Origin: Saprospiraceae bacterium
GTDB taxonomy: Bacteria; Bacteroidota; Bacteroidia; Chitinophagales; Saprospiraceae
DNA length: 64,000 nt
Reading direction: 5' to 3'
NCBI GenBank assembly: GCA_020628095.1
Contig: JAHDFP010000014.1
Span: 1-64,000 of the forward strand
Below are positions 5,421-16,823 of the stretch, piece after piece. Both the position numbers and the translations under genes were made by a program. Under the pieces are notes generated by a model. The model saw only the letters and a list, made by a program, of their open reading frames with translations. It was not told where the DNA came from and did no database searches. Position 1 is the first letter of the stretch; each line of letters begins with the position of its first letter.

Positions 5421-6440
5421 TCAATCTGTTTCGAAATAATTATGATAAGTCTCTTTGACCAGTTTTTGTATTTTTTGCTTTAGACGTCTTGGTTTGAGTA
5501 TGGTGATGGCAGGACCAAAACCCAATAGAAGTCTCTCCAATTCGAAATTATGATGGACACGCAATCCGACAAGGATAGAACCATCCGCATACTCCCCTAG
5601 CATCTCTTGAGAACTGTGAAAAGGCTTAGTCATCACATAGGGCGCATTGTACTTATCCACTTTCATTTCTATATTAATAATGTCTCTATCTGACAGCACA
5701 GATACGCCGATGGTATCTTTGTAATAGTCATCAGGATCAAAATTATGGTTCTCATAAGGGACAGAAAGATTAAACTCTAAATCTATGATACGATCCAGCG
5801 CAAAAGTTATCGTCGCTACCCTATCCTCTTTCTTCCCTACGACAAACCATCTATTATTGAACTCTTTGAGGATGTATGGCGTAAAAGTCACCACAGATGG
5901 TTTTCTTGCCTTGAATGATTGATAGTTGATATCCAGCACCATCTTTTTGACGATGGCCTGATATATGGTGTCCAGATGCTCTATACCCTGCAGTTGGTCG
6001 TTTTTATCGAGATGTATTATAGGAGATTGTTCTTTCGTTTCTCGATAGACTTTATCCTCCAGTTTTTGTATCACACCATTGAGCTCTGAGAAAAGAGAGA
6101 AATTTTTGAACTGTCTGAGCATCTCCATGGACTCTTGTAAGATATCTATGTCTATTTCCGTGATCGGTATATCAGTGATAGAATAGTTAGGCACTTCGTA
6201 TTTATAATATTTCCTATTATAGACAACTATAGGCGCATTGTAGCCCAGCTTGTTACTGCGCATATTTTGTATGTCTAACTGTACCGTTCTCTTACTCACA
6301 TAAGAATCCTTTCCTTCGTATTCATAGAGCGCATCTGAGCAAGCGTCGATAAGATCGTCTAGTGTCCATCTTTTCTGATGATTCTGTAGACACTTATCTA
6401 TAGCAAGGTATCTTATGAGAGCATTCTTATTAGTAGCCAT
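5421..6440 (-). CDS. WYL-domain transcriptional regulator of the RtcB island
   Basis: The start is placed at 6440 (MATNKNALIRYLAIDKCL); the frame open to 6485 adds 15 unlikely residues. The 339-aa protein has an N-terminal winged HTH (about 1-75, with a predicted recognition helix in 'YVSKRTVQLDIQNMR'), a WYL domain (about 155-230, signature degenerate as 'NRWFVVGK') and a C-terminal WCX-like part. WYL domains are thought to bind nucleic-acid ligands. It is transcribed divergently from rtcB across an 85-bp gap that holds a perfect inverted repeat, so it is the likely local regulator. WYL regulators beside RtcB are known from RNA-repair loci. Confidence 0.85.
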   Translation of the reverse strand: MATNKNALIRYLAIDKCLQNHQKRWTLDDLIDACSDALYEYEGKDSYVSKRTVQLDIQNMRSNKLGYNAPIVVYNRKYYKYEVPNYSITDIPITEIDIDILQESMEMLRQFKNFSLFSELNGVIQKLEDKVYRETKEQSPIIHLDKNDQLQGIEHLDTIYQAIVKKMVLDINYQSFKARKPSVVTFTPYILKEFNNRWFVVGKKEDRVATITFALDRIIDLEFNLSVPYENHNFDPDDYYKDTIGVSVLSDRDIINIEMKVDKYNAPYVMTKPFHSSQEMLGEYADGSILVGLRVHHNFELERLLLGFGPAITILKPRRLKQKIQKLVKETYHNYFETD

Positions 6441-6478
6441 AAGTAGAGAAATTACTTTTTTTGGAGAACACTCTAATC

Positions 6479-6497
6479 TACGCAAATATATTGCGTA
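6479..6497. promoter_or_regulatory. Perfect inverted-repeat operator between WYL gene and rtcB
   Basis: TACGCAA-ATATA-TTGCGTA is a perfect 7-bp inverted repeat with a 5-bp spacer. A shorter second element, GTGCA-TATAT-TGCGT, follows at 6503-6517. Together they fill most of the gap between the two divergent starts. A 17/19 match recurs at 9792-9810. The likely binder is the WYL protein; this is inference from position. Confidence 0.75.
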
Positions 6498-6525
6498 GCA
6501 ATGTGCATATATTGCGTTAAATTAA

Positions 6526-7905
<1,380 letters not shown>

Positions 7906-8569: not shown

Positions 8570-8641
8570 GGTATTGTAACTCAACGGTAGAGTGCCCGAC
8601 TGTCTCTCGGGTGGTTGCGAGTTCGATCCTCGTCAATACCG
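8570..8641 (+). tRNA. tRNA-Asp (GUC), divergent
   Basis: A full cloverleaf can be drawn: acceptor GGTATTG/CAATACC, D-stem ACTC/GAGT, anticodon stem CCCGA/TCGGG with loop CTGTCTC, and T-arm GCGAG-TTCGATC-CTCGT. Discriminator G73 fits Asp. Position 37 is U, where a purine is the rule, so this differs from a standard tRNA-Asp. No encoded CCA. First gene of the island. Confidence 0.85.
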
Positions 8642-8652
8642 CAATAGATTAG

Positions 8653-8724
8653 CTGAGGAGATAACGGTGGTTGTTTACTCGCCTTGGACGCGAGGGGTCG
8701 TAGGATAGTATCCTACTCCTCAGA
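8653..8724 (+). tRNA. tRNA-like RNA with Pro (UGG) anticodon and non-canonical T-loop
   Basis: Acceptor CTGAGGA/TCCTCAG (7 bp), anticodon stem CTCGC/GCGAG with loop CTTGGAC, 5-nt variable loop, and T-stem GTAGG/CCTAC are all perfect. The T-loop is ATAGTAT instead of TTCRANY, and the D-arm is reduced to TAAC-GGTG-GTTG with a tetraloop. The elbow contacts of a normal tRNA could therefore not form. It lies 11 nt after tRNA-Asp. It may be a mimic rather than a translating tRNA. Confidence 0.6.
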
Positions 8725-8729
8725 CTTAG

Positions 8730-8801
8730 GCTCCGTTAGTACAATGGTTAGTACACCTAACTTTCTATTAGGGAATATGAGTTCGATTCTCATACGGAGT
8801 A
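8730..8801 (+). tRNA. tRNA-Glu (UUC), divergent
   Basis: Acceptor GCTCCGT/ACGGAGT (G1-U72 wobble), D-stem GTAC/GTAC, anticodon stem CCTAA/TTAGG with loop CTTTCTA, 4-nt variable loop, T-arm ATGAG-TTCGATT-CTCAT. Like the Asp gene it has U37. It starts 5 nt after the preceding tRNA-like gene, so the array is probably one transcript. Confidence 0.85.
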
Positions 8802-8812
8802 CATATTATGAT

Positions 8813-8883
8813 TATCCTGTAGTGTAAGGGTAGCACACGAGTCTTTGATTCTCGTAGTATAGGTTCGATTCCTATTGGGATAA
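8813..8883 (+). tRNA. tRNA-Gln (UUG)
   Basis: The acceptor TATCCTG/TGGGATA starts with U as usual for tRNA-Gln. D-stem GTGT/GCAC, anticodon stem CGAGT/TCTCG with a U-U mismatch at 31:39, loop CTTTGAT, and T-arm ATAGG-TTCGATT-CCTAT. The same 31:39 U-U mismatch occurs in the island tRNA-Gly. Confidence 0.85.
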
Positions 8884-8896
8884 CTACAAGACATAA

Positions 8897-8969
8897 GCGG
8901 AGATGGCGGAACGGCAGACGCACCTGGCTTAGACCCAGGTTATTGAGAGTTCGAATCTCTCTCTCCGTA
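8897..8969 (+). tRNA. tRNA-Leu (UAG) lacking the long variable arm
   Basis: Acceptor GCGGAGA/TCTCCGT, a Leu-type D-arm (3-bp stem GCG/CGC, loop GAACGGCAGA), anticodon stem CCTGG/CCAGG with loop CTTAGAC, and T-arm GAGAG-TTCGAAT-CTCTC. The region between anticodon and T stems is only 5 nt (TTATT), so the type-II variable arm typical of tRNA-Leu is absent although the rest is Leu-like. Confidence 0.8.
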
Positions 8970-9116
8970 CAAAGTGAATAGAAGCGAAATAATTATTAAC
9001 CAAAAAAGAAATAAATATATGAACAGAAAAATACATCCGATTATAACAACCTAAGATGTGAGGTGAGCAACGGCTTGTCTCCTAGTATTTTGAAAGATTT
9101 AAAAAAATAATAGAAA

Positions 9117-9641
9117 ATGGAATTATCAACAGCAGATCAATATTATCTCAAAGCTCTTGATTACTATCCATACAATCTTGAGTGCGCTGTAGAAAATCTT
9201 AACTACGCACTCAGCTCTGAAGACAAGCATGCACAGACTAATTGCCTCCTGGGTAAAATATATATGTATTACCTCAAGGATTATGATCGCGCAGGACAGT
9301 GTTTTTATAATGCGCTGGTCGGCGATGCCAATTATCCAGATACTTATAAGCACTATAGCCTACTGAGAATCTGGGAAAGAGAGTATGACAGAGCACTCAA
9401 GATTATAGCACGTGGCATGACTATCACAGGGATGGACATCAGCATATTGCTGATGCACAAGTCTCTTATCCACGAGTGGAAAATGGAGTTATCGGAAGCA
9501 AAGAAATTATTGAAACAAGCCAGGCTTATTTCTACTAACGAAAAAAGACTGGGCAAAATCGATGGAGATCTGAAAAGACTGAAAAAGAAAATAAGTAAGC
9601 TCCGCATCGATAAAAAGAGCAAGAAAAAAAGTCAGAGATGA
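9117..9641 (+). CDS. TPR protein of the RtcB/tRNA island
   Basis: The 174-aa protein contains about three tetratricopeptide-like helical hairpins (residues 5-130; e.g. 'LLGKIYMYYLKDYDRAGQCFYNAL') and a very basic C-terminal tail (KRLKKKISKLRIDKKSKKK) that could contact RNA. No signal peptide, so it is cytosolic. It sits inside the tRNA array, between tRNA-Leu and tRNA-His, and is probably co-transcribed with it. The 12-codon frame at 9020-9055 upstream (MNRKIHPIITT) could be a leader peptide but is unsupported. A scaffold role in RNA repair is a guess from context. Confidence 0.7.
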   Translation: MELSTADQYYLKALDYYPYNLECAVENLNYALSSEDKHAQTNCLLGKIYMYYLKDYDRAGQCFYNALVGDANYPDTYKHYSLLRIWEREYDRALKIIARGMTITGMDISILLMHKSLIHEWKMELSEAKKLLKQARLISTNEKRLGKIDGDLKRLKKKISKLRIDKKSKKKSQR

Positions 9642-9673
9642 TAAATAGAACTATGACAGATTTCTTCTCATCA

Positions 9674-9745
9674 GGTGTCTTTAGTTTAACTGGCAAAATA
9701 ACTCTTTGTGACAGAGTAGAACAGGGTTCGAGTCCCGAAGACACC
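9674..9745 (+). tRNA. tRNA-His (GUG), second copy, divergent
   Basis: The His hallmark G-1:C73 is present: an 8-bp helix GGTGTCTT/AAGACACC counts G9674 as G-1. The anticodon stem is ACTCT/AGAGT with loop TTGTGAC, and the D-stem is weak (GTTT/AAAT). The T-arm is irregular, with a bulged A on the 5' side of the stem before the GGG-TTCGAGT-CCC core. It lies 32 bp after the TPR gene. A more canonical tRNA-His is at 53729. Confidence 0.75.
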
Positions 9746-9791
9746 CTTCATTTTTTAATATAAAAATTAAAAAATAGAAATATACCTTATC

Positions 9792-9810
9792 TGCGCATAT
9801 ATATTGCGTA
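9792..9810. promoter_or_regulatory. Second copy of the rtcB/WYL operator
   Basis: TGCGCAT-ATATA-TTGCGTA matches the rtcB operator (6479-6497) at 17 of 19 positions, and both are flanked by C on the left and G on the right. It lies about 200 bp upstream of the permuted tRNA units. A putative TTGACC element starts at 9818. This suggests that the WYL protein also controls the permuted-tRNA/slipin transcript. Confidence 0.7.
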
Positions 9811-10013
9811 GTTAGTATTGACCTTTATATTATCAATCAAAGGATTGGTAAAAAAACAATTGAAATAAGAACTAAAGAAATATCACGTAGCGTGATGAAA
9901 GAGGGTCTTCTGACATGACCTTAGACACCTGACGAGGGTTTCTGTATAGCCCCGTGTAACCAAAGTTATTAACTTTTGGTTTGACTATCTAAGCCAGTCA
10001 GACTACTTCCATT
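9811..10013 (+). ncRNA. Structured leader upstream of permuted tRNA units
   Basis: No ORF is visible. Hairpins: ATCACG-TAG-CGTGAT (9882-9896), GGGTC (9903-9907) with GACCT (9917-9921), ACGAGGG with CCCCGT (about 9932-9955), and AACCAAAGTTA with TAACTTTTGGTT (about 9958-9981, one extra T). The function is unknown; it may be the 5' leader of the permuted-tRNA transcript. Confidence 0.4.
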
Positions 10014-10086
10014 ATCAATGGGTCGTGGGTTCGATTCCCACTTATACATTTTGCGTATAATAGCTCAGACGGTTAGAGCAATTGAT
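10014..10086 (+). tRNA. Circularly permuted tRNA-Lys-like gene (unit A)
   Basis: Read in order the DNA holds: anticodon 3' strand ATCAAT (10014-10019), variable loop GGGTC, T-arm GTGGG-TTCGATT-CCCAC (10025-10041), acceptor 3' strand TTATAC (10042-10047), a 7-nt linker, acceptor 5' strand GTATAA (10055-10060), TA, D-arm GCTC/GAGC (10063-10079), A26, and anticodon 5' strand ATTGAT (10081-10086). Acceptor strands pair over 6 bp and anticodon strands over 6 bp. The stem and variable loop match usual tRNA-Lys sequences, and the T-run after 10087 would supply UUU. The break falls in the anticodon loop. Read linearly, no cloverleaf forms. Processing by RtcB is inference. Confidence 0.75.
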
Positions 10087-10095
10087 CTTTTTTTT

Positions 10096-10181
10096 ATTGA
10101 AATGCAGGTTCGAGTCCTGCCAAGACTACCTTGTCTTGTGGCGGAATTGGTCTACGCGGTAGATTAAGATTCTACTTCAAT
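10096..10181 (+). tRNA. Circularly permuted tRNA-Leu-like gene (AAG) (unit B)
   Basis: Order: variable-arm 3' strand ATTGAA (10096-10101), T-arm GCAGG-TTCGAGT-CCTGC (10104-10120), acceptor 3' strand CAAGAC (10121-10126), 6-nt linker, acceptor 5' strand GTCTTG (10133-10138), TG, Leu-type D-arm GCG/CGC (10141-10157), anticodon arm GTAGA-TTAAGAT-TCTAC (10159-10175), and variable-arm 5' strand TTCAAT (10176-10181). The acceptor pairs over 6 bp and the variable arm over 6 bp, giving the type-II arm expected for tRNA-Leu. The break falls in the variable-arm loop. The anticodon AAG with A34 is rare in bacterial tRNA-Leu. It starts 9 nt after unit A. Confidence 0.75.
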
Positions 10182-10224
10182 TACACAGAGAGCTGATCAC
10201 TCTACAAAAAAAATGATCCCCGGT

Positions 10225-10483
10225 AGCGCTGTGTTATATAACTCGTATCTGAGTTATCCTCCGATGTCCTTATACGCTAAGGTCATCATAAGGTATAACT
10301 CTGGATAATCAGAACTAAGATCTGAATGAGGCTGGATACCGTAAGGACCAGATGATACCACATTATTGTCAAGTGAAAACTCTCTACAGCTTGGGGATAA
10401 TCCTGACTTATATAAGGTATCAGAGAATCATTACTAAAAGCAACATCCATCTAAGGTCTGATGAGTCAATGTAATACAGCGCT
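10225..10483 (+). ncRNA. 259-nt structured RNA domain closed by a 12-bp helix
   Basis: AGCGCTGTGTTA (10225-10236) pairs with TAATACAGCGCT (10472-10483) over 12 bp with one G-U. Inside are ATAACTC-GTATCT-GAGTTAT (10238-10257), GATGTCCTTA-TACGC-TAAGGTCATC (10263-10287, one U-U), TCAGA-ACTAAGA-TCTGA (10309-10325), CTGG..CC-GTAA-GG..CCAG (10332-10351) with a GNRA-type tetraloop, and TGATACC (10353-10359) with GGTATCA (10416-10422). No ORF and no T-loop motif, and it matches no RNA family I can recall. It lies between the permuted tRNAs and the slipin gene. Confidence 0.65.
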
Positions 10484-10536: not shown

Positions 10537-11649
10537 ATGTTACTTATGAATTTATTCAGAAAGAGAGTACAGGCTTACGAAAAAGCACTTGTATTCCAGC
10601 ATGGCAAACTTATCGACGTACTAGAACCAGGCTTACACTGGGTGAGTCCGTTTGTCAAAGTCATTAAGTATGATGTAACAGAATTGTTCTATCATGCGAC
10701 GGATCTGGACTTGCTACTTGATGACTATCCCTTATCAGAAAAACTGGACATCATAGAGGTCAGTGATAACCAGATCGCCATCGAATATAAAAACGGAAAT
10801 TTCAGAAAAGTGCTGGAAGCAGGACGATATACTTACTGGAAAGACGGCCTAGATCTTACGCATCAGATCATAGATCTTAATGCTATAGAAGTAGATAAGA
10901 ACATAAGCAGGAAAATACTACATCGACCAGAGGTCGCCAGGTATCTGACTGTCCATATCATAGAAAGCTATGAGCGAGGCATCCTGCATGTAGAAGGTCA
11001 ACTGACTAAGCAACTGGAGCCAGGGGTATACTACTTTTGGAAAGGAGAGCAGAATGCTATCATAAGCAAAGTCGATACTCGTAAGCAACAAGTCGAGGTA
11101 AGTGGTCAAGAATTATTGACAGCTGATAAGGCTTCTGTACGGATGAGTCTATTCGCATACTATCAGGTTACGGATATCATGAAAGCTCTCATAGAGACTA
11201 AGGACTATTACAGACAGTTGTATGTCATACTACAATTAGGTCTCAGAGAGTATGTAGGTCAGTATAAGCTGGACGAATTACTAGATAACAAGGCCGACAT
11301 AGGACCTTACATCATGGACTACGCACGTAAGAGAGTAACTACATTAGGTGTAAACCTTATGGACTGCGGACTGCGAGACATCATCCTACCAGGTGATATC
11401 AAAGAAATCATGAATCAGGTATTACTGGCTGAGAAAAAAGCACAGGCTAACCTGATCATGAGAAGAGAAGAAACGGCCTCCACAAGAAGCCTGCTCAATA
11501 CAGCCAAACTCATGAGCGATAACGACATGTTATTCAAACTCAAAGAGATGGAATACATGGAGAAATTCGCAGACAGGGTCGGACAGATCACCGTCAATGG
11601 TGGTGGTCGTGTAATCGATCAGCTCAGAGAGTTAGTAGGAAGTAAGTAA
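10537..11649 (+). CDS. Slipin / SPFH (band 7) family protein
   Basis: The 370-aa product has three N-terminal repeats of a short beta motif (ALVFQHGKLIDVLEPG; YKNGNFRKVLEAG; HVEGQLTKQLEPG; residues 17-175), then a prohibitin-homology/SPFH core (about 180-285, 'VRMSLFAYYQVTD', 'VTTLGVNLMDCGLRDI'), and a C-terminal coiled coil. There is no hydrophobic N-terminal anchor, so it may be cytosolic or peripheral. ATG 10546 is an alternative start. Slipin-like genes are reported next to RtcB in RNA-repair loci; their role there is unclear. Here it sits between two tRNA blocks. Confidence 0.85.
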   Translation: MLLMNLFRKRVQAYEKALVFQHGKLIDVLEPGLHWVSPFVKVIKYDVTELFYHATDLDLLLDDYPLSEKLDIIEVSDNQIAIEYKNGNFRKVLEAGRYTYWKDGLDLTHQIIDLNAIEVDKNISRKILHRPEVARYLTVHIIESYERGILHVEGQLTKQLEPGVYYFWKGEQNAIISKVDTRKQQVEVSGQELLTADKASVRMSLFAYYQVTDIMKALIETKDYYRQLYVILQLGLREYVGQYKLDELLDNKADIGPYIMDYARKRVTTLGVNLMDCGLRDIILPGDIKEIMNQVLLAEKKAQANLIMRREETASTRSLLNTAKLMSDNDMLFKLKEMEYMEKFADRVGQITVNGGGRVIDQLRELVGSK

Positions 11650-12015: not shown

Positions 12016-12089
12016 GGTAACGTAGCTCATTTTGGTAGAGCGTCTGTGTGAAGAACAGAAGGCCGTTGGTTCGATTCCAACCGTTACCA
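12016..12089 (+). tRNA. tRNA-Phe (GAA), divergent
   Basis: Acceptor GGTAACG/CGTTACC, D-stem GCTC/GAGC, anticodon stem TCTGT/ACAGA, and T-arm GTTGG-TTCGATT-CCAAC are all perfect. The loop GTGAAGA gives anticodon GAA with U33 but has G at 32 and G at 37, unlike the usual Phe loop (A37). First gene of the second block. Confidence 0.8.
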
Positions 12090-12095
12090 CACTCC

Positions 12096-12169
12096 GCCCT
12101 CTTAGGTTCAATTGGTTAGACTACTTGACTTTTAATCTTGGGGTATTGGTTCGAGTCCAATAGGGGGCA
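12096..12169 (+). tRNA. tRNA-Lys (UUU) with mismatched anticodon stem
   Basis: Acceptor GCCCTCT/AGGGGGC, loop CTTTTAA (anticodon UUU), T-arm ATTGG-TTCGAGT-CCAAT. The anticodon stem CTTGA/TCTTG carries two adjacent U-U mismatches (28:42, 29:41), where an ordinary tRNA-Lys would have TCAAG. This is a second Lys-type RNA beside permuted unit A. Confidence 0.75.
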
Positions 12170-12208
12170 CTTTTTAGACTTTGTCGCATAGAGATCGGCA
12201 AGTACTAT

Positions 12209-12281
12209 TGACCAGAAGCTATATTGGCCTAGCGGCGGCTTGTTAAGCCGAGGACAGTGAGTTCGATTCTCACCTGGTCAG
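12209..12281 (+). tRNA. tRNA-Asn (GUU)
   Basis: Acceptor TGACCAG/CTGGTCA perfect, D-stem GCTA/TAGC, anticodon stem GCGGC/GCCGA with a G-A mismatch at 27:43, loop TTGTTAA, T-arm GTGAG-TTCGATT-CTCAC, discriminator G73 as expected for Asn. Confidence 0.85.
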
Positions 12282-12288
12282 CAGAGTC

Positions 12289-12321
12289 AAGATAAGGCAG
12301 ATATATCAGCCTTCATCTTTT
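12289..12321 (+). terminator. Terminator-like hairpin between tRNA-Asn and tRNA-Gly
   Basis: AAGAT-A-AGGC at 12289-12298 pairs with GCCT and ATCTT at 12309-12319 with small internal mismatches, followed by a short T/A run. It may end or attenuate the tRNA transcript. Confidence 0.5.
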
Positions 12322-12336
12322 ATAATTATATAATTA

Positions 12337-12408
12337 GTGGGTAAAGCATTATCGGTGATGTGCCAGTCTTCCAATCTGGAGAATAGAGTTCGATTCTCTA
12401 TACCCACT
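12337..12408 (+). tRNA. tRNA-Gly (UCC)
   Basis: Acceptor GTGGGTA/TACCCAC perfect (8 bp if A12336 is counted), D-stem GCAT/ATGT, anticodon stem CCAGT/TCTGG with a U-U mismatch at 31:39, loop CTTCCAA, T-arm TAGAG-TTCGATT-CTCTA. Confidence 0.85.
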
Positions 12409-12427
12409 CTAGGTTAGTTTTTTTTTT

Positions 12428-12492
12428 TGCCCTTAGTGGATCACTTAGGTCTTCGAAACCAAAAGTGAAAAGTTCGAATCTTTGGAGGGCAG
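12428..12492 (+). tRNA. tRNA-Arg (UCG) with truncated D-arm
   Basis: Acceptor TGCCCTT/GAGGGCA (7 bp), anticodon loop CTTCGAA on a stem TAGGT/ACCAA (A-A mismatch at 28:42), T-arm core AAAG-TTCGAAT-CTTT. Only nine nucleotides (TGGATCACT) lie where the 16-17-nt D-arm should be, so the RNA is about 65 nt. An 11-nt T-run directly precedes it. Confidence 0.6.
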
Positions 12493-12501
12493 CGATTAGC
12501 G

Positions 12502-12575
12502 GGACTTGTAGCTCAATCAGGTAGAGCAGCGCACTCATACTGCGCAGGTTAGGAGTTCGATTCTCTTCAAGTCCA
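12502..12575 (+). tRNA. tRNA-Met (CAU)
   Basis: Acceptor GGACTTG/CAAGTCC, D-stem GCTC/GAGC, anticodon stem GCGCA/TGCGC with loop CTCATAC, T-arm AGGAG-TTCGATT-CTCTT, A73. The paired G1-C72 argues against an initiator. It could be elongator Met, or Ile2 if C34 is lysidinylated. Confidence 0.85.
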
Positions 12576-12584
12576 CAACGTGAC

Positions 12585-12656
12585 ATCCGCATAGTTTAAT
12601 GGGAAGAATAAGGGATTTCTACTCCTTTGGTACTGGTTCGAGTCCAGTTGCGGATT
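12585..12656 (+). tRNA. tRNA-Arg (UCU)
   Basis: Acceptor ATCCGCA/TGCGGAT perfect, weak D-stem GTTT/GAAT, anticodon stem AGGGA/TCCTT with loop TTTCTAC, T-arm ACTGG-TTCGAGT-CCAGT. Confidence 0.85.
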
Positions 12657-12662
12657 CTATAG

Positions 12663-12736
12663 ACTCACTTGGCAGAGCGGTTATATGCACTTGCCTTACA
12701 AGCAAGACGAGCCAGGTTCGACTCCTGGAGTGAGTA
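12663..12736 (+). tRNA. tRNA-Val (UAC) with type-II-like D-arm
   Basis: Acceptor ACTCACT/AGTGAGT, anticodon stem CTTGC/GCAAG with loop CTTACAA, T-arm CCAGG-TTCGACT-CCTGG, A73. The D-arm (GCA/TGC with an 11-nt loop) resembles that of Ser/Leu tRNAs, but the variable loop has only 5 nt. A T-run follows at 12738-12743. Last gene of the island. Confidence 0.8.
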
Positions 12737-12771
12737 CTTTTTTCTTATCAACTAAGAATAGCAAATTGCTA

Positions 12772-14156: not shown

Positions 14157-16823
14157 ATGAGTTATCAAGAAGCCTTAAGGAGGATAGAAAAAGAAAAAGA
14201 AACGAGAACGAGAAAGTTAGACCTAAGTCATCTAAACCTTTATGAAATTCCAAAAGCGCTTGTGCAGTGTGACCATATCCATTATTTAAATTTAAGTGGA
14301 AACGAACTTTCTAATATATCTCTCTTAGAAGAGTTATCTAATGTTCTTGCATTATCCCTTTCCTCAAACAAGATTTCTGATATTTCTACATTACATAAAA
14401 TGTACAGTCTTCAAAAATTAAATCTTTCTTATAATCAAATCATCGATATTTCATCTATCAAAAGCTTGTCTAACATTCAAATCTTATATCTTCCTAGCAA
14501 CTTGATATTCAACATTTCGTCGATAATAAATTTATCTAACATTGAAGAATTATATCTATCAGAAAATAATATTTTAGATATTTCTGGGCTCAAAAATCTA
14601 AATCAACTTCGTAAATTGCACCTATACCGAAACCAAATTTCTGACATATCTGCTCTTCAGGGCTTGTCGAACATTGAAGAATTACATCTCTATCAAAACA
14701 AAATTTCTGACATCTCGGCAATTCAGAATTTATCTAATATTCGGAAATTGTATCTTTCCGATAATCAAATTTCTGATATTTCAGCGATTCAAAACTTATC
14801 CAACATTGAAAAGTTAGAACTTTCAGACAACCAAATTTCTGACATCTCGGCAATTCAGAATTTATCTAATATTCAAAAACTAGAACTTTCAAACAATCAA
14901 ATTTCTGATATTTCAGCGATTCAGAATTTACTCAAAATTAAAGAATTATATCTATCAGAAAATCTATTAGAGAAGTTACCAGAGTGGTTACTAAATTGCC
15001 AAATTGAGATCAAATATCAGAAATATCGTTCTGGGAGAGCAATTTATATAGGTGATAACCCAATAAAATCCCCACCCATAGAGATCATAGAGCGAGGTAA
15101 TGATGCTATCGCCAAATACTTCAAAGAACTCGAAGAACAAGGCAAAGACTATCTATACGAAGCCAAACTACTTATCGTCGGCGATGGTGGTGCTGGCAAG
15201 ACCAGTCTTGCAGGAAAAATAAAAAGTCTGGACACCCCCATGCCCAAAGAAGGTGCAGATCGCACCAAGGGCATTGACATACAAGCGATGCCCATACCTA
15301 ATCTAAAGCTCTCAAAACCGTCATTCCTGATGAATGTATGGGATTTTGGAGGACAGGGATACTATCACAGCACGCACCAGTTTTTTCTGACCAAGCGTTC
15401 TTTATACGTCCTACTTAACAATACGCGCATTAACAAAACAGATTTCAATGATTGGTTGCAGACCATATCTATGTTCAGTGATGACAGTCCGGTGATCCTT
15501 ATAGAGAATGAGGTAGGTGGCGTCAAATCAAATCTGGACCTCAGAGGATTGCAACAGCACTTCAGCAACATACTTTATGTGAGGACGGCCGATATATCAG
15601 ATCCGTTAGACTCCAATCTGACTCAGCTGATAGAGGATATAAAGATGGAAATACAACGACTCCCACACATAGGCACCGAGTTACCTCAGCAATGGGTCGC
15701 TATCAGAAAGGATATCAAAGAAAAAGCGAAAGAAAACGCCTATATATCTGATACGGATTTTTATCAGATATGTCGTGACAATAAGATCGAGGATGATGAT
15801 GCCATTCGTCGTTTGGGAGATTTGTTTCATGATCTCGGTATATTCCTGCATTTCCGTGATGACCGTGTGCTCAAGCGGATCGTCATACTACAAAATGCCT
15901 GGGCGACTAAGGGGGTATACACCATACTGGATGATACGATGGTGCGGGATAACAATGGAAAATTTACCGCTGAAGAGGCCGAAAAAATCTGGCAGCATAC
16001 ACCCTTCGCAGGGATGCAAGACGAACTCATCAGCCTGATGGAAAAATTCAAATTATGCTATCGCATTCCCTTCTCCGCACCTACCGCCTACATCTCACCT
16101 AATCTATTACCTGTAGAGCATCCAGACACACAGTGGGATTATAACCAAAATCTGGTCATCTATTATGATTACGATTATATGCCTAAGGGGATACTGGGTA
16201 TGCTGATCGTCGAGCTGCATCGCTATGTCAAAGACATAAGGAATCTCGCCTGGCGCTCGGGGTGTATATTCCATCATCAGAATACAGATGCGCAAGTCGT
16301 AGAGACCTATGGCAAAAAGAAACTGGAAATCCGTATCAAAGGACCGCATTGCGTGGTACTCTCCAGCATAATAATCAGCGAAGTCGATAAGCTCAATGAT
16401 TCCTTCCCGCGTATAAAGGTCAAAAAACTTATCCCCTGCCCGTGCAGCGATTGCGCCAAATCCACAGAACCGCCTAAATATTATGAGTACCCCGATCTTA
16501 TGCGCAGAAAAGAAAGAGGCAAGGCAACCGCAGAGTGCCCACTCACATATAAGGACGTCAGCATCTCCGATATACTAGAGGCCACGTATGACGAAAGACA
16601 CCTGATCCATCGGACTATACCAGAACTGATCAAAGAAGGCAAAACCAAAGAGGCCATAGAAGCTCTGGAAGAAAATAATTCTGAGCAAGGTATTCTGCTT
16701 ATGGCTCGCTATAATGATATAAATAGGCAATATTCAAATGGCGCAATGACGGAGGAAGTACGATCTGCGAAAATGCAGCAAATAAATGATAGTATCATGA
16801 CTCAGTACAATATGGAGTCCTAA
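14157..16823 (+). CDS. LRR-ROCO (Roc-COR) GTPase with C-terminal effector-associated domain
   Basis: 888 aa. Residues about 20-300 are some 11 leucine-rich repeats of 22 residues with the core NQISDISAIQNL, several nearly identical at DNA level. A Roc GTPase follows (P-loop VGDGGAGKTS near 340, DFGGQ near 397), then COR (about 480-755) and a Cys cluster PCPCSDC near 760. The last ~70 residues (ELIKEGKTKEAIEAL ... LLMARYNDINRQY) resemble the EAD11 adaptor of bacterial NLR-like conflict systems. The LRR part is AT-rich, the rest near 45% GC. Followed by the nuclease and EAD-CHAT genes; a sensor/switch role is likely but inferred. Confidence 0.88.
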   Translation: MSYQEALRRIEKEKETRTRKLDLSHLNLYEIPKALVQCDHIHYLNLSGNELSNISLLEELSNVLALSLSSNKISDISTLHKMYSLQKLNLSYNQIIDISSIKSLSNIQILYLPSNLIFNISSIINLSNIEELYLSENNILDISGLKNLNQLRKLHLYRNQISDISALQGLSNIEELHLYQNKISDISAIQNLSNIRKLYLSDNQISDISAIQNLSNIEKLELSDNQISDISAIQNLSNIQKLELSNNQISDISAIQNLLKIKELYLSENLLEKLPEWLLNCQIEIKYQKYRSGRAIYIGDNPIKSPPIEIIERGNDAIAKYFKELEEQGKDYLYEAKLLIVGDGGAGKTSLAGKIKSLDTPMPKEGADRTKGIDIQAMPIPNLKLSKPSFLMNVWDFGGQGYYHSTHQFFLTKRSLYVLLNNTRINKTDFNDWLQTISMFSDDSPVILIENEVGGVKSNLDLRGLQQHFSNILYVRTADISDPLDSNLTQLIEDIKMEIQRLPHIGTELPQQWVAIRKDIKEKAKENAYISDTDFYQICRDNKIEDDDAIRRLGDLFHDLGIFLHFRDDRVLKRIVILQNAWATKGVYTILDDTMVRDNNGKFTAEEAEKIWQHTPFAGMQDELISLMEKFKLCYRIPFSAPTAYISPNLLPVEHPDTQWDYNQNLVIYYDYDYMPKGILGMLIVELHRYVKDIRNLAWRSGCIFHHQNTDAQVVETYGKKKLEIRIKGPHCVVLSSIIISEVDKLNDSFPRIKVKKLIPCPCSDCAKSTEPPKYYEYPDLMRRKERGKATAECPLTYKDVSISDILEATYDERHLIHRTIPELIKEGKTKEAIEALEENNSEQGILLMARYNDINRQYSNGAMTEEVRSAKMQQINDSIMTQYNMES

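Follow-up and report, generated by a model that had tools for sequence, protein, structure and literature searches.

Circularly permuted tRNA folds and clusters of RNA-repair genes have both been described before. The bacterial Y RNA YrlA (RF02553; PDB 6CU1) is a circularly permuted tRNA mimic (PMC11472068), and its tRNA-like domain has a T-arm, a capped acceptor stem and a D-arm; in some bacteria it is encoded near RtcB (PMC11472068, PMC7790460). As a free-standing RNA, YrlA serves to tether proteins (PMC8394870). In Salmonella, damaged tRNAs switch on the RtcB operon (rtcBA with Y RNAs). The authors of that study suggest that the tRNA-like domain of YrlA might competitively inhibit an anticodon nuclease; YrlA itself was not cut by the nuclease studied (PMC7790460). 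Permuted tRNA genes with the 3' half first and a break in the anticodon loop are reported from algae and one archaeon (PMC3978253). In an Anabaena TrcR mutant, the trn operon (26 tRNA genes), rtcB and the slipin gene alr0740 rise together; a repressor controls the tRNA operon and rtcB, and translational stress relieves this control (PMC10272220).

We analysed a window of 64,000 nucleotides, the first part of contig JAHDFP010000014.1 of a Saprospiraceae bacterium (Bacteroidota), which carries two permuted tRNA-like units, A and B, upstream of a slipin gene. The units share with YrlA the permuted domain with its T-arm, capped acceptor stem and D-arm, and an RtcB gene in the vicinity. Unlike YrlA, there are usually two of them, unit B has an intact anticodon arm, and the RNA is longer, with its own 5' and 3' motifs, a slipin partner and no Ro60 gene found in 40 genomes. 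A first-pass annotation of the locus had listed no permuted tRNA genes as known from bacteria, a statement that calls for the caveat that YrlA is itself a permuted mimic (PMC11472068). The Salmonella rsr-yrlBA-rtcBA cluster likewise places a tRNA-mimic RNA in an RtcB operon, the one induced by damaged tRNAs, but has a Ro60 homologue and RtcA/RtcR in place of a slipin and a WYL regulator (PMC7790460). Unit A has the 3' half first and the anticodon-loop break of the algal and archaeal permuted tRNA genes, whereas its acceptor end and that of unit B are mostly capped by short loops and no splicing endonuclease was found in 15 genomes (PMC3978253 for the genes as described there). The Anabaena TrcR regulon combines, as here, a tRNA array, rtcB and a slipin gene; it has another regulator, and the passages of the report that describe it name no tRNA-like noncoding RNA (PMC10272220). 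Among the literature matches listed, no title or opening of an abstract describes the present RNA, and its novelty is to be understood within the searchable literature.

Permuted units and their gene cluster

Two cloverleaves in circularly permuted order lie on the plus strand at 10014-10181 of the window, unit A (10014-10086) being open at the anticodon loop and unit B (10096-10181), with its anticodon arm intact, at the variable loop. Unit A is closed by ATCAAT (10014-10019) and ATTGAT (10081-10086), which enclose the T-arm (10025-10041), an acceptor-like hairpin of 6 bp with a 7-nt loop (10042-10060; TTATAC at 10042-10047 with GTATAA at 10055-10060) and the D-arm (10063-10079). Unit B is closed by ATTGAA (10096-10101) and TTCAAT (10176-10181), with the T-arm at 10104-10120, an acceptor-like hairpin of 6 bp with a 6-nt loop at 10121-10138 (CAAGAC at 10121-10126 with GTCTTG at 10133-10138), the D-arm at 10141-10157 and the anticodon arm at 10159-10175, whose loop TTAAGAT is Leu-like. 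The first-pass annotation had the permuted order and the tRNA fold right; all the pairings it named are present in the sequence, and in both units 2:71 to 7:66 are paired and 1:72 is not, as it had stated. The long variable-arm stem that it gave unit B exists in the window but is not general among homologues, where a general closing stem was rejected (mean score 8.65 versus 8.30 in shuffled data, 35 of 200 shuffles being as high). Single-sequence folding is only modestly better than shuffles for the window, where z is -2.18 and 5 of 200 shuffles do as well, and for a related form in E. coli, discussed below, z is -1.26, with 17 of 200 shuffles as good; these folds being weak, the case rests on comparison.

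Neither ARAGORN nor Rfam at its gathering score reports a tRNA at 10014-10181. With the threshold lowered, tRNA is matched at 28.3 bits (gathering 29) by a hybrid of A and B (10054-10128). In the homologues L055, L087, L100, L109 and L112, parts of the two units do pass tRNA thresholds. A permuted tmRNA (Rfam RF04321) was considered and rejected, the match being confined to the T-arm and scoring 11.3 bits versus 47.

Units A and B are the centre of what we predict to be one longer conserved structured RNA, extending from approximately 9830-9930 to at least 10341. In 26 hand-picked aligned regions (alignment A3) the units are flanked by conserved blocks. A 5' hairpin at 9935-9952 keeps the loop TTTCTGTATAG while its stem varies in pairs (A3 columns 121:139 and 122:138), and is followed by a second hairpin of variable sequence at 9959-9980. 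The hairpin AGAGCTGATCACTCT stands 3' of unit B at 10189-10203, with an A-rich stretch (AAAAAT) behind it in many homologues. The motif GGATACCG in the 3' part of the RNA (10334-10341, 153 nt after unit B; all these elements are on the plus strand) is frequent in homologues and also occurs in the more distant loci L120 and L156 (Subdoligranulum).

The surrounding cluster (window approximately 5.4-12.7 kb) combines genes for a WYL regulator, RtcB, slipin and a 174-aa protein with the permuted units and a tRNA array in two parts. The WYL/WCX protein (5421-6485, minus strand; Pfam WYL and WCX), whose true start is probably downstream of the listed TTG, is the predicted cluster regulator. The RtcB RNA ligase is encoded on the plus strand at 6526-7905 (Pfam RtcB, E 5e-35). 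The first-pass annotation had placed the units next to rtcB, and the link to RtcB was right in that both belong to one cluster; they are not adjacent, since rtcB ends 2.1 kb upstream and five ARAGORN tRNAs and the gene for the 174-aa protein lie between. That protein (9117-9641, plus strand) has no Pfam match and is present in part of the modules, namely in 3 of 11 loci of a smaller set and in the fetched stretches of 12 of 80 slipin loci. The slipin gene itself (SPFH/Band_7; 10537-11649, plus strand; Pfam Band_7) is the partner of the RNA. RtcB (E up to 1e-40) is found in the fetched stretch of 41 of the 80 slipin loci, some of which are on short contigs, and WYL relatives in 26, several contigs again being short.

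The first part of the tRNA array (8570-9746, plus strand) comprises Asp, Glu, Gln, Leu and His genes together with a Pro-like unit at approximately 8642-8728; the second (12016-12737, plus strand; ARAGORN) comprises Phe, Lys, Asn, Gly, Arg, Met, Arg and Val. The Pro-like unit has acceptor and anticodon stems and a degenerate T-loop (ATAGTAT) and is not called by ARAGORN; in the arrays of L029 and L030 the program calls a tRNA-Pro. Homologous arrays also hold tRNA-like units with long insertions (L029 near 6.0 kb, reverse; L031 at 10.9-11.2 kb; L033 at 7.1-7.3 kb; L044 at 5.3 kb; L053 at 120-315), and the sequence AGTAGGGAAGCGCATTTA.AGCC, located inside the split tRNA-like unit, is common to L033, L044 and L053. 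In L053 (a Winogradskyella MAG), positions 1-98 match the 3' end of GOLLD RNA below threshold (30.7 bits, gathering 150); they lie at the end of the contig, immediately upstream of its RNA-slipin module. Four related loci gave no GOLLD match at E 0.001. Elsewhere near the cluster, the window encodes an LRR-Roc-COR protein with an effector-associated domain (EAD11) at 14157-16823. RlaP is encoded on the same contig, 2.4 kb past the window end (G000:C23:66432-67166), and this RlaP-family gene and a second partial match together occupy G000:C23:66432-67641.

A palindrome, CTRCGCA-N7-TGCGYAG, is common to the upstream region of the RNA and the gap between the WYL gene and rtcB. The copy in the gap (CTACGCA-N7-TGCGTAG, 6478-6498) is a predicted operator, and the other (CTGCGCA-N7-TGCGTAG, 9791-9811) a predicted operator or promoter of the RNA; the WYL protein would be the factor that binds them. 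The pattern, which was written after examples had been seen, is expected 0.06 times per 64 kb in mononucleotide shuffles. Many relatives carry copies before the RNA, WYL or rtcB, yet a copy within 400 nt upstream of the core is present in only 21 of 56 parsed loci. The clustering of tRNA array, rtcB and slipin with a shared palindrome may represent a stress-induced regulon of the Anabaena type, under one regulator.

Conservation and covariation upstream of slipin genes

Using the slipin protein as a query, we sought relatives in 60 genomes and in GTDB contigs, where the best 80 of 574 relatives were taken. The same two-unit layout recurs before homologous slipin genes across Bacteroidota. A covariance model, R1, has a match of at least 85 bits upstream of slipin in 65 of these 80 GTDB loci; 30 of the 80 had helped to build the model, and outside it 35 of 50 match at this level. 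Because tandem ordinary tRNAs score nearly as high (84.9 bits for an array match in L104), four loci at 85-88 bits (L077, L083, L087 and L091) were assigned by their place upstream of slipin. The other 15 loci comprise L048, which lacks upstream sequence, L096, which shows no unit, and 13 with single or partial units. Some loci lack unit B or have a degenerate one, and three tRNA-like T-arm units stand in tandem in L073 (approximately 5448-5700). Among cultured strains, Chitinophaga filiformis DSM 527 (L042) carries the module with unit A alone, and Flavobacterium hibernum DSM 12611 (L061) carries it too.

The association was also approached from the RNA side. A search of 296 genomes of the phylum with R1 under strict filters gave ten matches above 105 bits, our own included, and then a gap down to 88 bits. 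A slipin gene adjoins all ten, in a search that favours such RNAs, R1 having been built from slipin-linked sequences, and that could miss diverged copies elsewhere. The genome of the window has a single strong match (114.2 bits, the next being 50.4). Some match to R1 at E 0.001 occurs in 289 of the 296 genomes; ordinary tRNAs in tandem likewise score with R1, reaching about 85-88 bits, and the weaker matches are assumed to be mostly of this kind. None of 20 fetched matches of 60-88 bits (L134-L153) has a slipin gene beside it.

Of 87 upstream regions, 56 were parsed as containing two spaced T-arms plus the unit A D-arm and anticodon stem; these parses include at least one artefact (L033). The parser required the T-loop motif, A14, the T-stem, the D-stem and at least four anticodon-stem pairs in unit A, and in choosing the hairpin of unit B it gave extra weight to U33 and a purine at 37. 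Neither the acceptor stems nor the 15-48 pair were among its requirements. From the 56 parsed cores, 37 with a clean two-unit layout were picked for alignment A2, in which figures for the demanded or favoured features (helices, A14, T8, U33 in 35 of 37) are consequently inflated. A set of 97 hits, chosen without acceptor or anticodon pairing, gives those features free of parser bias. The homologous sequences are related to each other, so that counts of pairing and covariation in both sets are not independent events.

In A2, 95.0% of 1481 cells are paired versus 67.6% after shuffling, and pairing falls to 37-47% when the partner strand is slid. Double changes number 444 versus 134, and none of 500 shuffles reaches either the pairing or the double-change figure. 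RNAalifold recovers nearly the same fold, with 37 pairs, 32 of them with double changes. The acceptor stems pair at 86.4% and 91.9%. Among the 97 hits, 454 of 485 cells at five acceptor positions are paired, versus 244 in shuffled data (highest 269); for the A-type anticodon stem, at the best of four offsets and with B-type hits included, the figures are 400 of 485 versus 320 (highest 342). The tertiary Levitt pair 15-48 is present in 37 of 37 A units, as 28 C:G and 9 T:A that switch in step, and in 31 of 35 B units of A2, and both units should therefore form tRNA-like elbows despite their permuted strands. Comparison of sequences thus indicates that the permuted fold is under selection. Covariation in homologous loci was among the tests that the first-pass annotation had named, and it is seen in both A2 and the 97-hit set; its view that the helices are more than chance is borne out by a layout that recurs before homologous slipins and covaries. 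The A2 covariation, the 15-48 pair and the pairing among the 97 hits led us to reject chance or a pseudogene.

Unit B keeps a 7-nt anticodon loop, with U33 in 24 of 27 and a purine at 37 in 27 of 27 loops chosen without preference (two of the 27 being A units). Its anticodons in A2 are those of Lys, Asn, Arg, Leu, His, Ile, Phe, Tyr, Gly, Asp and Pro, and once a stop anticodon. D-arms that we take to be of the Leu/Ser type co-occur with anticodons for Lys, Pro or Arg, and the arms of unit B thus seem to have been exchanged separately; judged by eye, this mismatch makes it doubtful that the unit was copied whole from one tRNA.

Related leaders outside Bacteroidota

In Citrobacter, rtcR is followed by a stretch that contains a T-arm and an acceptor-like hairpin, and then by slipin and RlaP; in E. 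coli a similar T-arm and hairpin stretch precedes slipin and RlaP. Both forms keep the T-arm and hairpin, and the D-arm is not recognisable; as the E. coli form consists of T-arm and hairpin only, an anticodon arm is dispensable. Between E. coli strains, one pair of the T-stem differs on both sides. A query of the E. coli leader, slipin and RlaP has a match in 1,624 of 5,426 complete genomes, in 1,617 of them over at least 80% of its length, and two records show no annotated RNA at the leader. Upstream of it, TGGCACGCTTCTCGC resembles a sigma54 promoter.

In Subdoligranulum, slipin is preceded by two T-arms and GGATACCG. Burkholderia and two IMG/VR contigs, one with GGATACCG, carry before slipin a tRNA-like unit whose strands are in normal order. 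In L120, taken from a 94-kb IMG/VR contig, 36 ARAGORN tRNA genes precede slipin; the last of them is the tRNA-like one in normal order, and GGATACCG follows it. ARAGORN calls a tRNA for the normal-order unit in both Burkholderia and L120. Since these normal-order units may be ordinary tRNA genes, the link across phyla lies mainly with E. coli, Citrobacter and Subdoligranulum.

Identity and possible function of the RNA

Comparison among loci supports the permuted folds, the 15-48 elbow pair, the anticodon arm of unit B, the slipin partner and the RtcB, WYL and tRNA neighbours, and on these features the locus very probably encodes a tRNA-mimic RNA of this RNA-repair cluster. We read it as an undescribed variant of the YrlA kind of tRNA mimic, distinguished by tandem units, an anticodon arm and a slipin partner. 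The best explanation of the whole, to which we assign a probability of roughly 0.5, is that the tRNA-mimic domains belong to one long structured noncoding RNA encoded directly before slipin, with bait or scaffold as its proposed mode of action.

Among the alternatives, the first-pass annotation had put forward permuted tRNA genes, whose transcripts RtcB would seal within the anticodon or the variable loop, while excision of the linker between the acceptor strands would yield working tRNAs. Such genes would account for the permuted order next to an RtcB in the cluster; in both units the 3' half is indeed encoded before the 5' half with matching helices, and the anticodon loops of unit B look functional. 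The acceptor ends speak otherwise. In A2, A units have 4-8 gapless bp in 36 of 37 and loops of 3-7 nt in 33 of 37, and B units 4-9 bp in 33 and such loops in 29 of 37. Of the 37 A units, as of the 37 B units, 10 have a gapless stem of at least 7 bp and 27 do not, the window having 6 and 6 bp. The acceptor segment is too short for 7+1+7 nt in six A and three B units, and three A stems are of 4 bp, one of them (L031) capped by GCAA; some A units (L053, L090, L103 and L104) do have long linkers. No match to the tRNA splicing endonuclease (PF01974) was found in 15 genomes (our own and 14 relatives), with 4 of 14 controls positive, all archaea, and the E. coli and Citrobacter forms lack a recognisable D-arm. 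On this indirect evidence, of acceptor ends that are short capped hairpins and no endonuclease match in the 15 genomes, the units are probably not tRNA genes, and we reject this maturation route, which appears improbable. Membership in the Ro60-binding Y RNAs of the YrlA family is, if anything, slightly less probable still. Unit A (10017-10086) does align to positions 23-88 of the YrlA model at a relaxed threshold (37.6 bits, E 1.6e-6); matches at other loci score 35.9-47 bits in 7 of 7 loci of one set and 34.9-37 bits in 3 of 5 of another, with one locus in both, and four loci (L066, L067, L088 and L107) span the whole model, 1-114. All of these scores, for the window and the loci alike, fall short of the Rfam gathering score of 69, and no Ro60 (TROVE) match was obtained in 40 genomes (our own and 39 relatives; 1 of 14 controls positive), on which grounds the assignment was rejected.

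A cis-acting leader is a different matter: the RNA would be the 5' untranslated region of slipin, and a tRNA enzyme that binds or cuts the units would switch slipin expression. The position directly upstream of slipin in all ten RNA-first matches above 105 bits favours it, as do the finding of no terminator-like site on the plus strand between RNA and slipin in the window and the approximately 320 nt that separate the E. coli sigma54-like site from slipin with no other annotated gene. A strict -7 promoter box, found before the RNA in 4 of 56 loci and before slipin in 3 of 56, is rare on both sides and hardly separates the transcripts; slipin may also have a promoter of its own. YrlA, the nearest known relative of unit A, works by contrast as a separate RNA (PMC8394870), and we consider the leader possible but not probable. 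That the units are decaying tRNA genes of a mobile array, rearranged by chance, could be argued from other array units that are degenerate or carry insertions; against the phylum-wide covariation and conserved flanks, its probability is close to negligible.

The preferred reading, a tRNA-mimic RNA acting in trans, fits best the second option of the first-pass annotation, a decoy or sensor resembling a nicked tRNA. Cleavage of tRNA would switch the cluster on, and the RNA would be made together with slipin, RtcB and spare tRNAs. Unit A would be a look-alike of a tRNA already nicked in the anticodon loop, and unit B of an uncut tRNA whose anticodon varies by species; because the acceptor ends are capped, neither could be charged. 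Enzymes of tRNA cleavage and repair (anticodon nucleases, RtcB, RlaP) might then be bound by the RNA, which would serve as bait or form a scaffold on a slipin membrane platform; we propose this mode of action tentatively and at somewhat less than even odds. More speculative, and rather doubtful, is the extension to a cross-phylum class of RNA-repair RNAs, tRNA mimics in the slipin leader with a form in approximately 30% of complete E. coli genomes. Unit A would there imitate a nicked tRNA and unit B would be bait with an exchangeable anticodon arm, its anticodon changing between species because the nucleases met change; the state of the RNA would report or buffer tRNA damage and steer slipin, RtcB and RlaP.

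The RNA connects scattered facts of RNA repair, namely Y-RNA-like mimics, RtcB, slipins and tRNA arrays. Permuted tRNA folds of bacteria, known from YrlA, appear here in a more elaborate form, in tandem and with an anticodon arm. The locus offers a concrete RNA with which the role of these slipins, and the way cells sense and resist tRNA-cutting enzymes, can be tested, and the E. coli slipin-RlaP locus with its T-arm leader makes ordinary genetics possible.
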